Assembly: GCA_025782575.1 (NCBI GenBank)
Contig: JALGYY010000003.1
Span: 1 to 8,533, forward strand
Direction: 5' to 3'
Origin: a bacterium
GTDB taxonomy: Bacteria > Orphanbacterota > Orphanbacteria > Orphanbacterales > Orphanbacteraceae
DNA: 8,533 nt
Shown: one piece after another, positions 1,873 to 8,533 of the stretch
How the letters are laid out: every line of letters starts with the position of its first letter
Numbering within the stretch: position 1 is the first letter of the stretch
Position numbers and translations under genes: made by a program
Notes under the pieces: generated by a model
What the model was told of the DNA's origin: nothing
Database searches by the model: none
Seen by the model: only the letters and a program-made list of their open reading frames with translations

Positions 1873-2574
1873 TCAACGGGAGCCGGACTCCTCCAGGTGA
1901 CGCGCGATGGCCTCCTCCCACTCCGCGGGCTGGAAGTACATCGGTCCGACGCCGCCCTTGTAGGCAATGCGCCCGTCCGCCCCTACCAGGTACAGACGCT
2001 CCGGCATCCCGTTGTATGCGGTGGCCACGGCGTCATCCATCTCGTCGACGAGTGCGGGCATCTCGAGCGCGAGCTTCATCATGCAGGTCTGTCCGACATC
2101 GACCCGCTCGTTCATCGACTGGTGCTGGCGGAAGAGCACGCCGTCCTCCTCGTTGTGCCTGATCTGCCAGCCGTCAGTCGGGTGGATCTCCTTGATGTAG
2201 ATCACGTAGAACTCGACCCGGTCGCGGAAGCGGCGGTAGATGCGGTTGAGGGGCCCAGCCTGGACCCGGAACGGCGGTCAGGTGTAGCTTCCGAAGATCA
2301 ATGCGACTGGCCTCTCACCGCGGTGATCCGCGAGCTGCACGCGCTTGCCCTCGTCTGCCCCGCTGAGCGTGGGCAACGAGAAGTCGGGCGCGGGATCCCC
2401 CTCCTGCACCGACGCGGCCTCCCGGCCCATCAGCTCCACCACCATCTCGGCGGCCTTGGGATGCGACATGGCCTCGCGCAGCTCGTCCAGCGACAGACCC
2501 TGCATGCTCACGCCCCGGCTCTCAAGGTCCTTGCGAAGGTCCTCCATCATCCGGTCGACGTCGATCGCACTCAC
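1873..2574 (-). CDS. Deiodinase-like selenoprotein (TGA read as selenocysteine)
   Basis: One 233-residue protein starts at GTG 2574, with GGGAGG at 2581-2586 six bases upstream. TGA at 2280-2278 encodes residue 99. Residues 1-55 are a charged helical extension. Residues 59-98 look like a redoxin strand-helix start (GDPAPDF, then VALIFGSYT). The TGA is followed without a frame change by PPFRVQAG, giving FGSYT-U-PPF, the active-site signature of iodothyronine deiodinases (PF00837, thioredoxin fold). Downstream, the family landmarks continue in order: YIKEIHPTDGW (126-136), RQHQ (149-152), MPERLY (190-195) and DGRIAYKGGVGP (200-211). In vertebrate DIO1, Sec and two histidines in the corresponding EEAH and NHQN segments matter for catalysis; here they are Sec99, His131 and His151. 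Tyr97 replaces the Cys found in the DIO1 motif. Family membership and Sec coding are well supported. The substrate is unknown: thiol redox or reductive dehalogenation is possible, and thyroid-hormone chemistry should not be assumed. There is no signal peptide, so it is probably cytoplasmic. Confidence 0.93.
2251..2267 (-). promoter_or_regulatory. Bacterial-type SECIS hairpin within the coding region
   Basis: On the minus strand, ten bases after the TGA, GGGTCC (2267-2262) and GGGCCC (2256-2251) pair as six base pairs including one G-U wobble, around the loop AGGCT. An extra A-U pair would leave a GGC loop. Sixteen bases separate the TGA from the loop. Known bacterial SECIS elements lie just downstream of the UGA, with a short loop that has G near its 5' side, where SelB binds. 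This hairpin meets those criteria while also encoding the protein. I folded it by eye, without an energy calculation. Confidence 0.7.
2278..2280 (-). other. In-frame TGA selenocysteine codon (residue 99)
   Basis: The codon lies between ACC (Thr98) and CCG (Pro100). Deiodinase-family homology is continuous in the same frame on both sides, and Sec is the expected residue at this exact position. A simple nonsense mutation would rarely fall on that codon and leave more than 130 conserved downstream residues intact. Confidence 0.9.
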
Positions 2575-2580
2575 GGCTTC

Positions 2581-2586
2581 CCTCCC
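2581..2586 (-). promoter_or_regulatory. Ribosome binding site deciding a GTG start
   Basis: GGGAGG ends six bases before GTG 2574 on the minus strand. It favours this GTG over the internal ATG at residue 9, which has no comparable purine-rich site in front of it. Confidence 0.65.
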
Positions 2587-2722
2587 TCACTCCGGTATCC
2601 GCCTATGTTACTGCAGTCGTGGGCTCAAGGGATCCCCACGGCCCCGGACGCGGTCGTGCCGCCCGTACGGGGCACTGACGGCCATCAGGACCGCGAAGCT
2701 CACGTGTGGATGAGCATCATAG

Positions 2723-2980
2723 GGGTATGGCGTCTACGAGCAGGCGGGCGGCGGCTACCTGCTGCGAATCTTCGGCGCATTCGCAGCCATACTGCTGCTC
2801 GCATACCCGTTCGCCAGGATCGCCCGGCGCATGATCAAGAACGACCCGAACGAGATCACCGACGAGATGCGACAGCAGACGCGAGAGATCAACCGGCAGG
2901 TCATGGCTCCACAGCTGCGCATGATCGGCGAGTACTTCAAGCCGGGCTTCCACCCGTGGAAGTGCAAGTCCAGCACTGTG
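2723..2980 (+). pseudogene. 5'-truncated relic of a PF10118-like metal-dependent hydrolase
   Basis: The frame opens right after a TAG at 2720-2722 and reads GYGVYEQAGGGYLLRIFGAF, then a hydrophobic segment, then ARRMIKNDPNEIT, REINRQVMAPQLR and EYFKPGFHPWK. This order matches, from memory, the C-terminal half of the PF10118 metal-dependent hydrolase family: a DVYxxxGGGY-like start, a membrane-like helix, a K(K/N)DP segment and a PGFHPW-like end. The upstream half, where the family's histidine and glutamate motifs lie, is missing, and no start codon precedes the conserved part in this frame. After FHPWK (ending at 2962) the frame runs open to 3226, but the translation no longer looks conserved. 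I read it as a decayed fragment. A frameshift near 2725 is possible, because an ATG at 2710 in another frame gives MSIIGV. It is divergent from the selenoprotein gene. Confidence 0.6.
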
Positions 2981-3083
2981 CCCCGGGGGACAACTCAGAG
3001 TGTCTCGGTCACCCTAGGAAGCGAACTTCACACCACTCTGGAGCTACCCCGTTTCCGTGGACAGTTGAGCGCTGAGGTGGGCG

Positions 3084-3337: not shown

Positions 3338-3940
3338 ATGCGCTTCGGGATCGCTCTCGTTTCACTTGCCGTCTTGTCGATTTCCCCGGCCGCAGAAGCC
3401 GTAACGATGGACTTCGAGTCGCTGGAGGTCATTGGTGGCGGAAATACGAGTGTGGGGGGGAGCTACACCGAAGATGGGTTTCTGCTAACTGAGATCACTT
3501 CTACCAATCCACACCTGCAGTTCTTCGAGACACTCAACCTAAACTATCCTGGATCGACTGCTCTGTTCTTCGGTGAGGACGGGATGGCTGCCCGACTCGA
3601 ATCAGTCAGCGGCTCCCCATTCGACTTTAGTTCGATCGAGCTGGCTCACATGGGGTCTGGTGGTGGGTCTATTGGTTTCACCGGTCACTTTGCAGCGGGT
3701 GGGACCATCTTCCAGGGCTTTAGCGTCCCTACTGGAGACCTGGAACTAGTCACGTTCACCTTCTCGGGGTTCGAGAATCTGAACCGACTCGAATGGACCG
3801 AGGAATTTCACAACGCGCACCAATTCGACAACATCGTGGTGAGTATCGTTCCCGAGCCCTCTACCGCACTTCTCCTCGCCTCGGGTCTGGTGGCGATGGC
3901 GGCGGGGCGGACGCGCCGGAACAACACAGGAAGGAGATAG
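3338..3940 (+). CDS. PEP-CTERM sorting-domain protein
   Basis: This is a 200-residue exported protein. The start at 3338 has AGGAG at 3327-3331, six bases upstream, and a Sec signal peptide (MRFGIALVSLAVLS, likely cleavage near AEA at residues 19-21). The body opens with TMDFESLEVIGGGNTSVGG and is rich in G, S, T, F and aromatic residues, as is common in beta-sandwich PEP-CTERM proteins. The C-terminus has the tripartite sorting signal: VPEPS (171-175), a hydrophobic helix (ALLLASGLVAMAAG), then a basic tail (RTRRNNTGRR). Such proteins are processed by an exosortase (EpsH/XrtA type) at the inner membrane and handed to the cell surface or matrix, often beside exopolysaccharide genes. No exosortase is in this window. 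The next gene starts 2 bases after the stop, so the two form an operon. The function of the body is unknown. Confidence 0.9.
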   Translation: MRFGIALVSLAVLSISPAAEAVTMDFESLEVIGGGNTSVGGSYTEDGFLLTEITSTNPHLQFFETLNLNYPGSTALFFGEDGMAARLESVSGSPFDFSSIELAHMGSGGGSIGFTGHFAAGGTIFQGFSVPTGDLELVTFTFSGFENLNRLEWTEEFHNAHQFDNIVVSIVPEPSTALLLASGLVAMAAGRTRRNNTGRR

Positions 3941-5764: not shown

Positions 5765-6238
5765 ATGATGCAGCAGACATTCGATTTCGAAACGCTGACC
5801 GGAGTAATTGAAGCGGCAAAGGCGGCAGCCAAGCGTTATCGGGAACTCACGGGAAAGCCATTGGGAATCACGGGGGAGATCGGGGAAGTTCTCACCGCCA
5901 ATCTGCTCGGTCTCGATCTCTCCGATGCCCGACAGCCCTGGTACGACGCTATCGGATCCGATGACCGGCGAGTCCAGATCAAGTCTCGTTGTGTCCTTCC
6001 GAACACGAAGCCTGGCCAGCGCGTCGGCCAGATTCGCTTCGACCACGAGTGGGACACCGTTGCTCTCATCCTAATGAATGAGGACTTCGAGCCAATTGAA
6101 GTCTGGGAAGCCAGGCGTGAACGAATCCAAGAAGAACTCGCCAAACCGGGCTCGAAGAGTCGAAACGAACGCGGAGCCTTGGGTGTGAGCAAGTTCAAGT
6201 CAATCGCCGAGATGAGATGGCCACCGAGCGGGAGATAG
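5765..6238 (+). CDS. DUF6998-like protein with PD-(D/E)XK-type motif
   Basis: This encodes 157 residues from ATG 5765; a second ATG at 5768 and a GTG at 5753 are alternatives, and none has a clear ribosome binding site. After a helical N-terminus (EAAKAAAKRYREL) come GITGEIGEVLTANLLGLDL (34-52), PWYDAIG (58-64) and RRVQIKSR (68-75). Glu38 or Glu41, Asp61 and the Gln71-Ile-Lys73 triplet fit the order of a PD-(D/E)XK restriction-endonuclease-like core, with QxK in place of ExK. WDTVALILMNEDFEPIEVWE (96-115) would be the following core strands. This layout agrees with my memory of DUF6998-type proteins, which are small and poorly characterised. Activity on DNA is an inference; the protein may be a nuclease, a restriction-type defence component or an inactive fold. 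There is no signal peptide, so it is cytoplasmic, unlike the lipoprotein 40 bases upstream. Confidence 0.75.
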   Translation: MMQQTFDFETLTGVIEAAKAAAKRYRELTGKPLGITGEIGEVLTANLLGLDLSDARQPWYDAIGSDDRRVQIKSRCVLPNTKPGQRVGQIRFDHEWDTVALILMNEDFEPIEVWEARRERIQEELAKPGSKSRNERGALGVSKFKSIAEMRWPPSGR

Positions 6239-6544: not shown

Positions 6545-6577
6545 GACCGCCTCGAAGGTCACCCGCGAGGTCCGGTC
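6545..6577 (-). terminator. Hairpin at the end of the lipoprotein operon
   Basis: On the plus strand GACCG-CCTCG (6545-6554) pairs with CGAGG-TC-CGGTC (6566-6577), making 10 pairs with a 2-base bulge and an 11-base loop. It begins on the last base of the stop codon of the third lipoprotein. There is no T-run on the minus-strand exit side, so it is a likely transcript-end or stability hairpin rather than a textbook intrinsic terminator. Confidence 0.45.
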
Positions 6578-6942
6578 TATTGGAATCGCCGGTGGATTTC
6601 AAGGTCGTCTGGAACACTTGAGAACCAGATGTAGCCATTGTAAATCCCGTCCTCATCGAAGAACACGAGGACGATTGCCAGTTGAATATCATCCGGCGTG
6701 CCAGTCTGGAATTGGTAGTTCCATAGAGACTGCTCTCCATCGTACATCGGAAGCCTTGCGCGACCCTGCCCGTCCGGTGGCCCGAGCACCTCCAACACCT
6801 GACCGAAACCGCTCTTTCCGACAACAAGCGAGGATTCGAGCCGATCCGTGGGTGGATGGGTCCCGCTGACAATTGGAATAGCGACACATCCGCCACACGC
6901 GAGAATCAACGCCGCAATGAAAACGAAACGTGTCCTGTCCAT
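6577..6942 (-). CDS. Small BamE/SmpA-like lipoprotein, third in tandem
   Basis: This encodes 121 residues, starting at ATG 6942, three bases after the stop of the preceding gene. The signal MDRTRFVFIAALILAC gives a lipobox ILAC with Cys16; GGC at 17-19 is a poorer alternative. The mature part shows the motif order shared by all three proteins of the operon: KSGFGQVLEVLGPPDGQG, then SLWNYQF, then IVLVFFDEDGIYNGYIWFSS. This strand-helix-LGxPxG-WxY-VFF pattern is like the BamE/SmpA fold of small periplasmic lipoproteins. Family membership is by layout only, and it need not act in the BAM complex. It has no strong ribosome binding site, so it probably depends on coupling to the upstream gene. Confidence 0.83.
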   Translation of the reverse strand: MDRTRFVFIAALILACGGCVAIPIVSGTHPPTDRLESSLVVGKSGFGQVLEVLGPPDGQGRARLPMYDGEQSLWNYQFQTGTPDDIQLAIVLVFFDEDGIYNGYIWFSSVPDDLEIHRRFQ

Positions 6943-6945
6943 TGT

Positions 6946-7290
6946 CTACCGAAGTGTCAGTCCGCCAGCATCTTGCATGCCGACGAGGCTGGAAAACCAG
7001 AAGTGTCCGTGATAGCGACCATTTTCGAAGAAAACCAGCAACATCTCTTGCTTGACAGGAAGCTCGAAGATCAGGTGATGGTAAAACCAAATCTCTTGCG
7101 TCGGTGACTCACCGCCAAGTCGCGAACCGCCGATTCCGTTCGGCTCGCCCAAGAGCGACTGAACCTGACTCTTCGATGAGACGTTGACCTCCATCCTTGA
7201 GAGCGGGTCGACTCGAATCAGGCTTCCGGTCGTTCCCGTGCTCATGCAGCCGGCCAGCATCGTGAGCAGCAGGATCACGAGCGCTTTCAT
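6946..7290 (-). CDS. Small BamE/SmpA-like lipoprotein, second in tandem
   Basis: This encodes 114 residues. Its ATG overlaps the stop of the first gene as ATGA (7290-7287), a mark of translational coupling. The signal MKALVILLLTMLAGC has the best lipobox of the three (LAGC, Cys15). Mature motifs are SSKSQVQSLLGEPNGIG, then EIWFYHH, then MLLVFFENGRYHGHFWFSS. The LGxPNG and EIWxY segments match the first protein closely, and the DNA encoding EIW is identical over 13 bases (7086-7098 and 7451-7463). The final WFSS is shared with the third protein. The function is unknown; the fold resembles BamE/SmpA. Confidence 0.86.
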   Translation of the reverse strand: MKALVILLLTMLAGCMSTGTTGSLIRVDPLSRMEVNVSSKSQVQSLLGEPNGIGGSRLGGESPTQEIWFYHHLIFELPVKQEMLLVFFENGRYHGHFWFSSLVGMQDAGGLTLR

Positions 7291-7652
7291 TGCTCCATGC
7301 CTGCTTCGTAGTCAGCTCCCCAATAGAGAAACCCATCGTAGAGATCACCCCTAAAGAAGATCAACAGTATCCGCATCTGGATGTCGGCGTATGCCACGTT
7401 CTTTGCGTAGTCGATCCGAACGTTGGAAGTCTTGGGCTGTTCCTGCCAATACCAAATCTCTTGGTGTCGGAAGGATGGTGGGAAGAAGGCTTCTCCCTGT
7501 GTGCCGTTTGGCTTTCCGTATATCTCTATGACGTCTGACTTGGTCGACGTGCCGAGCGTCAGCAGATCATCGACCTCTTCAATATGTCGAGTCATTTGAT
7601 TAGAAGCACAACCCAGGATTGTGAACAGAACGATTATGAGCGTTGTTCGCAT
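7287..7652 (-). CDS. Small BamE/SmpA-like lipoprotein, first in tandem
   Basis: This encodes 121 residues. The frame extends upstream to 7703, but ATG 7652 is preferred: it begins the lipoprotein signal MRTTLIIVLFTILGC (lipobox ILGC, Cys15), with GGCAGGAGG about 11 bases upstream. Mature motifs are STKSDVIEIYGKPNGTQG, then HQEIWYW, then ILLIFFRGDLYDGFLYWGAD. It differs from its siblings by an extra loop of about 15 residues (around NVRIDYAKNVAYADI) between the WYW and IFF strands. It is the first gene of a three-gene operon on the minus strand. Confidence 0.84.
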   Translation of the reverse strand: MRTTLIIVLFTILGCASNQMTRHIEEVDDLLTLGTSTKSDVIEIYGKPNGTQGEAFFPPSFRHQEIWYWQEQPKTSNVRIDYAKNVAYADIQMRILLIFFRGDLYDGFLYWGADYEAGMEQ

Positions 7653-8410: not shown

Positions 8411-8423
8411 GAAGCGCGATGAT

Positions 8424-8471
8424 CAACGACAATTACTTCTGCCGGTCCAACGACAACTAGAATTGCCGGTT
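8424..8471. repeat. Two imperfect 24-base direct repeats
   Basis: Units begin at 8424 and 8448, each opening with CAACGACAA and closing with TGCCGGT; 18 of 24 positions match. The first unit begins at the point where resemblance to DUF2779 stops. Paired short direct repeats at a junction can be transposase binding sites at the end of an element, or operator repeats. No element is identified. Confidence 0.45.
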
Positions 8472-8533
8472 GCCTCACCCTCGATGCGGCCTGCCACCCT
8501 GCGGGGAGGGAGGGTCGGCACGGATGGTGACGG
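8472..8533. other. Right edge of window, no gene seen
   Basis: G+C-rich sequence with a purine-rich run (GGGGAGGGAGGG, 8501-8512). It is too short to assign. Confidence 0.3.

Follow-up and report, generated by a model that had tools for sequence, protein, structure and literature searches.

A predicted soluble deiodinase-like selenoprotein of bacteria, encoded across an in-frame UGA codon

Bacterial deiodinase-like selenoproteins have been in the literature since 2005, when four selenocysteine (Sec) and six Cys forms were described from the Sargasso Sea and a redox role was suggested for them (PMC1088965); the GOS study of 2008 counted 22 Sec and 21 Cys forms in the deiodinase-like family (PMC2398784). 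That such proteins had been noted before, as the initial annotation of the present locus remarked, is therefore correct. A 2026 review lists them as functionally uncharacterised (PMC13188914). Reviews tabulate the family motif as UxxC (PMC13188914, PMC9312934); in our view, however, this tabulated motif does not define the family, because membership in the 2005 and 2008 papers is based on Pfam00837, and the table of the 2008 paper gives no motif (PMC1088965, PMC2398784). Among the characterised deiodinases, Sec of DIO3 is surrounded by a network of hydrogen bonds formed by Tyr197, Glu200, His202, His219 and Arg225 (PMC7506546, PMC11592359), and in DIO1 and DIO3 a proximal Cys, located two residues N-terminal to Sec, resolves its oxidised form (PMC9141512).

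The gene examined here lies on the minus strand of a window of 8.5 kb, which is an entire contig (C19). The frame read from 2574 to 1873 starts with GTG, contains a sole internal stop, TGA at 2280-2278, and ends with TGA at 1875-1873; a purine-rich, Shine-Dalgarno-like sequence, GAGGGAGG, is found 7-14 nt 5' of the start codon (2581-2588, minus strand). The two same-frame segments parted by one TGA that had been reported for this strand are thus present base for base. With TGA read as U, the complete coding sequence specifies 233 residues, with FGSYTUPPF at residues 94-102 (Sec at residue 99) followed by KEIHPTDGW, FRQHQS, MPERLYLV and IAYKGGVGP; the deiodinase landmarks that the initial annotation had named (FGSYTUPPF, EIHPTDGW, RQHQ, MPERLY and YKGG) all occur in family order. 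Under the standard code the locus comprises a 98-aa ORF (2574-2278) and a 110-aa ORF from an internal GTG (2205-1873), and it is overlapped by an antisense ORF of 392 aa (1897-3075, plus strand). The first two had been predicted as products of automated gene callers, and an antisense gene as a possible one. The antisense ORF is very likely spurious, as the conserved protein is encoded on the opposite strand.

The joined 233-aa protein matches Pfam PF00837 (T4_deiodinase), the family to which it had been provisionally referred, with E = 1.7e-33 (116 bits against a gathering cut-off of 27, residues 53-221). The part before the TGA ends at profile position 114 and the part after it, which matches by itself with E = 4.7e-23, begins at position 115; the match therefore runs through the UGA unbroken. 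PF00837 is likewise matched by all 62 aligned family members. The best NCBIfam match is NF038285 (deiodinase family protein; 212.8 bits, residues 13-228), which falls below the curated cut-off of 250; this model has a longer N-terminal part than the window protein.

A scan of 84,980 species genomes for the DNA pattern GSx[T/S]-TGN-P, further residues and ExHPxDG, in which TGA, TGC, TGT and TGG were equally allowed, yielded at least 118 matching bacterial loci. Among the 118 loci listed, the TGN codon is TGA in 108 and TGC or TGT in 10, and eleven phylum-level groups (NCBI) are represented: Pseudomonadota, Chloroflexota, Planctomycetota, Myxococcota, Latescibacterota, Acidobacteriota, Armatimonadota, Poribacteria, Actinomycetota, Verrucomicrobiota and Gemmatimonadota. 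The resulting Sec share of about 92% among the matches listed applies to this motif-defined subfamily only, as distant Cys forms, for example a Mycolicibacterium plasmid protein, lie outside the pattern. That plasmid protein was the one distant relative found in phage, plasmid and viral collections, which held no close relative; a single-protein search of viral and genome contigs for related loci returned nothing, and it was the motif pattern that succeeded instead. A viral match with TGG (L208) was discarded as a 25-residue chance match. Within one Myxococcota order, 79 genomes were searched at the protein level, and 26 of them contained 35 matches in total. An internal TGA is present in all 35, the 18 closest relatives of the window protein in that search among them. 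Several Myxococcota genomes hold two or three copies of the gene. At one locus (G117:C238:16450-17707) two divergent genes for deiodinase-like selenoproteins are arranged tail to tail, with 16 bp between their matches. Three listed homologues (L125, L152 and L157) have long C-terminal extensions, with 256-389 residues from the Sec/Cys position on, and are possible fusions; an EF-hand fusion has been reported (PMC9402790).

Homologues extend beyond residue 98, so one observation that was proposed as a refutation of the selenoprotein, that close homologues end there, was not made. Among the matches listed, their ORFs terminate at or near the same point as the terminal stop of the window gene (1873-1875), with TAA, TAG or TGA, and recoding of UGA is confined to 2278-2280. 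In comparisons with six relatives, the codons 3' of the UGA are more conserved than those 5' of it and have dN of 0.19-0.33 against dS of 0.59-1.98. As dN is well below dS, the downstream part must be translated and useful.

Shortly after the UGA lies a putative bacterial SECIS upper stem-loop (2251-2267, minus strand), with a 7-bp stem, GGGUCCA/UGGGCCC, and a loop, GGC, from +18 nt after the UGA. Synonymous-codon shuffles of each gene served as the control for the folding energy of 48-nt windows in 101 listed Sec genes. Relative to this control, the energy is lowest where windows start between -12 and +12 of the UGA (mean z about -0.75, s.e. 0.12); elsewhere along the genes z is mostly between -0.4 and +0.4, so that the peak is at the UGA only. 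Of these 101 genes, 85% have a hairpin with a loop that begins 14-26 nt after the UGA and carries G within its first two bases; the synonymous shuffles predict 35% (z about 11), and none of nine Cys genes tested from the matches listed has such a hairpin. Compensatory changes affect two of the seven stem pairs among 14 close relatives, one of those two being unpaired in eight of the 14. When the hairpin region of the window alone was compared with dinucleotide shuffles the signal was absent (z = 0.55), and it took the synonymous-codon control across 101 genes to reveal it. An Rfam search of the window gave zero matches.

The bin that holds the contig (G000) encodes SelA (525 bits), SelB (379 bits), SelD (379 bits) and tRNA-Sec (72.7 bits), all above curated cut-offs. 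Its selD gene (L024, 1468-2529) is itself a selenoprotein gene, with an in-frame TGA at the active site (KAGUAAKH). The contig, however, is probably foreign to the bin, and the sel genes of the bin are therefore weaker evidence than the initial annotation assumed. The tetranucleotide correlation of the contig with the main genome is 0.32, compared with about 0.7 for most equal stretches, although a few long contigs are equally low. Ends of 114 bp are common to many of the main contigs, whereas C19 overlaps only C29 (112 bp), which is itself atypical; the shared end of 112 nt (8420-8531 of the window) is identical to the end of C29 in reverse orientation and contains a 23-nt imperfect direct repeat (8424-8446 and 8448-8470). 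The closest protein relatives are from Myxococcota, with up to 69% identity and group support of 100/99 in a tree of the listed matches, and the deiodinase-like gene is absent from the six other genomes of the bin's phylum. The window also encodes three tandem small lipoprotein-like paralogues (6577-7652, minus strand), one with a weak BamE match; a similar tandem set is found in a Myxococcota genome (G064) that also carries a deiodinase-like gene, and not in the kin of the bin. Further genes of the window encode a protein with a C-terminal PEP-CTERM sorting motif (3338-3940, plus strand) and a DUF6998 protein (5765-6238, plus strand; E = 6e-11). The simplest reading is that the contig is probably a mis-binned piece of a Myxococcota genome; the alternative is horizontal transfer.

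Mis-binning leaves the Sec assignment unweakened, because the Myxococcota relatives also decode Sec: the five nearest have tRNA-Sec matches of 66-74 bits. The expectation of Sec machinery in the source genome thus held for the bin and for close relatives, but the probable mis-binning means that for the host organism itself the machinery is inferred from relatives. Among 50 genomes with listed homologues, which are not independent of one another, a tRNA-Sec match above 53 bits is present in 34 of the 40 genomes with the Sec form and in one of the 10 with the Cys form (P = 1.7e-5, by Fisher's exact test); this threshold was set by eye above tRNA-Ser-like matches, which reach about 52 bits, and is stricter than the Rfam value of 47. 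In five loci (L182, L184, L200, L106 and L128) selA lies within about 4 kb of the deiodinase-like gene, and in three of them so does selB; the hosts are three closely related Rhodospirillaceae-type genomes, one Devosia-labelled bin and one Verrucomicrobia bin.

An internal TGA can be read in other ways. The standard code does stop the frame at 2278-2280, and if a nonsense mutation had made a pseudogene of the locus, the 98-residue fragment would be its product and the downstream part would be decaying; this is very improbable, given that TGA stands at the same codon in 108 of the 118 listed loci across eleven NCBI phylum-level groups, that the downstream part is the more conserved one, with dN well below dS, and that the fold, its active-site helix included, is encoded for the most part after the UGA. 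We consider it just as improbable that a sequencing or assembly error has hidden a Cys codon, TGC or TGT. The contig does come from a draft bin and Cys forms are known in 10 of the 118 listed loci, but TGA is carried by all 18 of the closest relatives and recurs in many independent genomes, which disposes of the error at 2278-2280 that had been raised against the initial annotation's own reading, and the window has a SECIS-type hairpin of the kind missing from the nine Cys genes tested. Least probable of all is a translation of TGA as Trp, as in genetic codes 4 and 25, or as some other residue: any sense reading would open the frame equally well, but the window gene and many homologues terminate at TGA, the non-TGA homologues among the matches listed have Cys and never Trp, and both the SECIS-type hairpin and the co-occurrence with tRNA-Sec speak for Sec.

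The recurrence of TGA, the hairpin, selection after the UGA, the co-occurrence with tRNA-Sec and a DIO-like predicted fold are together fitted only by a functional deiodinase-like selenoprotein, and they support the 233-residue bacterial selenoenzyme that had been proposed. On this comparative evidence the UGA at 2280-2278 is almost certainly a Sec codon. Comparison among homologues shows it to be followed by a SECIS-type hairpin and the entire 233-residue product to be kept by selection.

An AlphaFold2 model built from 62 sequences has a pLDDT of 93.8 and a pTM of 0.89; most of its fold, with the active-site helix, is encoded 3' of the UGA. Its best structural matches are DIO2 (9h48; Z 21.7) and DIO3 (4tr3; Z 21.2), which have the same fold at 29-31% identity; the next match has Z 17.2. 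AhpE and the Bcp/PrxQ peroxiredoxins, and thioredoxins of the TlpA/ResA type, share the fold and place their active residue at the same helix N-terminus, but they lack the DIO loop-D (HPxDGW) insertion and score lower (Z about 17). The window protein has FGSxT-U-PPF and ExHPxDGW in common with DIO2 and DIO3, as well as equivalents of His219 and Arg225. Unlike them it has no membrane anchor, its N-terminus being charged, helical and free of any hydrophobic stretch in both sequence and model, and its SECIS, unlike that of vertebrate deiodinases, is of bacterial type and inside the coding region.

All counterparts of the DIO3 network that we aligned are present: U99, E129 (codon 2188-2190, minus strand; DIO3 Glu200, part of the proton-relay network in DIO according to PMC7506546 and PMC11592359), H131 of HPTDGW (2182-2184; DIO3 His202), H151 (2122-2124; DIO3 His219) and R157. 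Position 151 is His in 25 and Pro in 81 of 111 listed homologues. The search pattern itself demanded E129, H131, P132, D134 and G135, so that the constancy of these five carries no independent weight; among positions free of this constraint, the same 111 homologues conserve Y126 (111), W136 (93), R157 (108), C164 (98), Y187 (101), P191 (109) and R193 (106). Cys164 (2083-2085, minus strand), in the helix 154-167, is the protein's only cysteine. The proximal Cys of DIO3 (Cys168) is replaced by Tyr97, the distal Cys is placed differently from that of DIO3, and Cys164 aligns with Leu in DIO2 and DIO3; Cys164 is thus a candidate to resolve the oxidised Sec in place of the proximal Cys. Cys164 is missing from each of the five listed homologues that do have a proximal Cys, L115, L125, L164, L174 and L178 (P = 1e-5); as members of a single clade, however, they represent one event. 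These homologues belong to Planctomycetota and Verrucomicrobiota and have GSCT-U/C-PPF, as in DIO1 and DIO3. A further difference is Val209 at the position of the basic residue of DIO3 (Arg275) and DIO2 (Lys241), a position that is not conserved among the listed bacterial homologues. As this is the residue proposed to hold the hormone carboxylate in DIO3, iodothyronine is an unlikely substrate.

We consider it very likely that one gene at this locus encodes the whole of a soluble, deiodinase-like bacterial selenoprotein of the PF00837 family with a predicted Sec/Cys redox cycle, a statement that covers no particular substrate. In the mechanism we propose, SelB with Sec-tRNA-Sec would bind the hairpin 11-27 nt after the UGA and insert Sec99 where the active-site helix of a thioredoxin/peroxiredoxin-like fold begins. 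Sec99 may be activated by a proton relay like that of deiodinases (Ser96, Thr98, Tyr126, Glu129, His131 and His151/Arg157) and would then attack a small substrate, either oxidised or halogenated. Cys164 would resolve the oxidised selenium by forming a Sec-Cys bond with it, and the enzyme would be regenerated by cellular thiols. The most likely activity is that of a Sec/Cys thiol-dependent reductase. As to the chemistry, reduction of a peroxide or other thiol-type reduction is somewhat favoured, reductive dehalogenation of a non-hormone organohalide is a reasonable but less probable prediction, and a reaction of neither kind is quite unlikely. Clustering of gene neighbours at the listed loci revealed no common partner except selA/selB in a few, and gave no hint of the substrate; SDR and Gfo/Idh neighbours were rejected as functional partners because they are common families.

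Two more specific enzymes deserve comparison. A peroxiredoxin-like selenoperoxidase of 2-Cys type, with Sec99 peroxidatic and Cys164 resolving, has a little less than an even chance in our judgement. It would account for the conservation of Cys164, for AhpC-TSA domain matches in 60 of the 62 family members (40.5 bits for the window protein, against a cut-off of 26), for structural matches to AhpE and Bcp at Z about 17, and for Ser96 at Sec-3 and Arg193, which fit the active-site Thr/Ser and Arg of peroxiredoxins. The AhpC-TSA match, however, reflects shared ancestry only, the peroxiredoxin motif PxxxT/SxxC is incomplete, with Leu92 in place of its proline at Sec-7, the DIO loop-D insertion is present, and the DIO structures outscore every peroxiredoxin. 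A strict deiodinase-type reductive dehalogenase that removes I or Br from a natural halogenated aromatic would suit the clear margin by which DIO2 and DIO3 are the nearest structures, the retained proton-relay residues and HPxDGW loop (with W136 in 93 and R157 in 108 of the 111 listed homologues) and the presence of UPPF instead of UxxC. Such an enzyme is nevertheless the more doubtful of the two, as the carboxylate-holding Arg/Lys of DIO3 and DIO2 is not conserved, dehalogenation genes do not recur among the neighbours of the listed loci, and these hosts would not be expected to contain thyroid hormone (PMC1088965).

The window gene belongs to a family known since 2005 and is not a new type of system. 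It shares with the Sargasso Sea and GOS deiodinase-like selenoproteins the Pfam family, the Sec form and a bacterial-type SECIS, and differs from them in sitting in a Myxococcota-like contig and in belonging to a listed subfamily that is about 92% Sec; a literature search of incomplete coverage found no paper on Myxococcota members. In contrast to the UxxC of the reviews, the window protein and nearly all of the 108 listed Sec loci have U-P-P-F, with a distal Cys 65 residues later. The distribution of the family among bacteria is much broader, and its dependence on Sec more consistent, than the literature that we found reports. What we add is modest: the scale of the family, near-universal Sec in the subfamily, the conserved distal Cys164, which is absent from DIO2 and DIO3, and the missing basic residue that holds the hormone.

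The bacterial family might even be the ancestral pool of animal deiodinases, a widespread Sec enzyme with the DIO relay in place and Cys164 resolving in most members, from which a Planctomycetota/Verrucomicrobiota lineage swapped Cys164 for a proximal Cys (GSCT-U/C-PPF, as in DIO1 and DIO3) and gave rise to a type from which animal deiodinases possibly derive. We regard this as a rather unlikely speculation, and a tree of homologues did not resolve the placement of the animal sequences. Standard annotation meanwhile loses a whole widespread enzyme family, its genes being split at the UGA and possibly shadowed by a false antisense gene. As soluble, Sec-containing relatives of the membrane-bound deiodinases, these proteins offer a way to ask what role the fold had before thyroid hormone, and near-universal Sec, a candidate resolving Cys at a new position and the lack of a hormone clamp set them apart in specific ways that can be tested.
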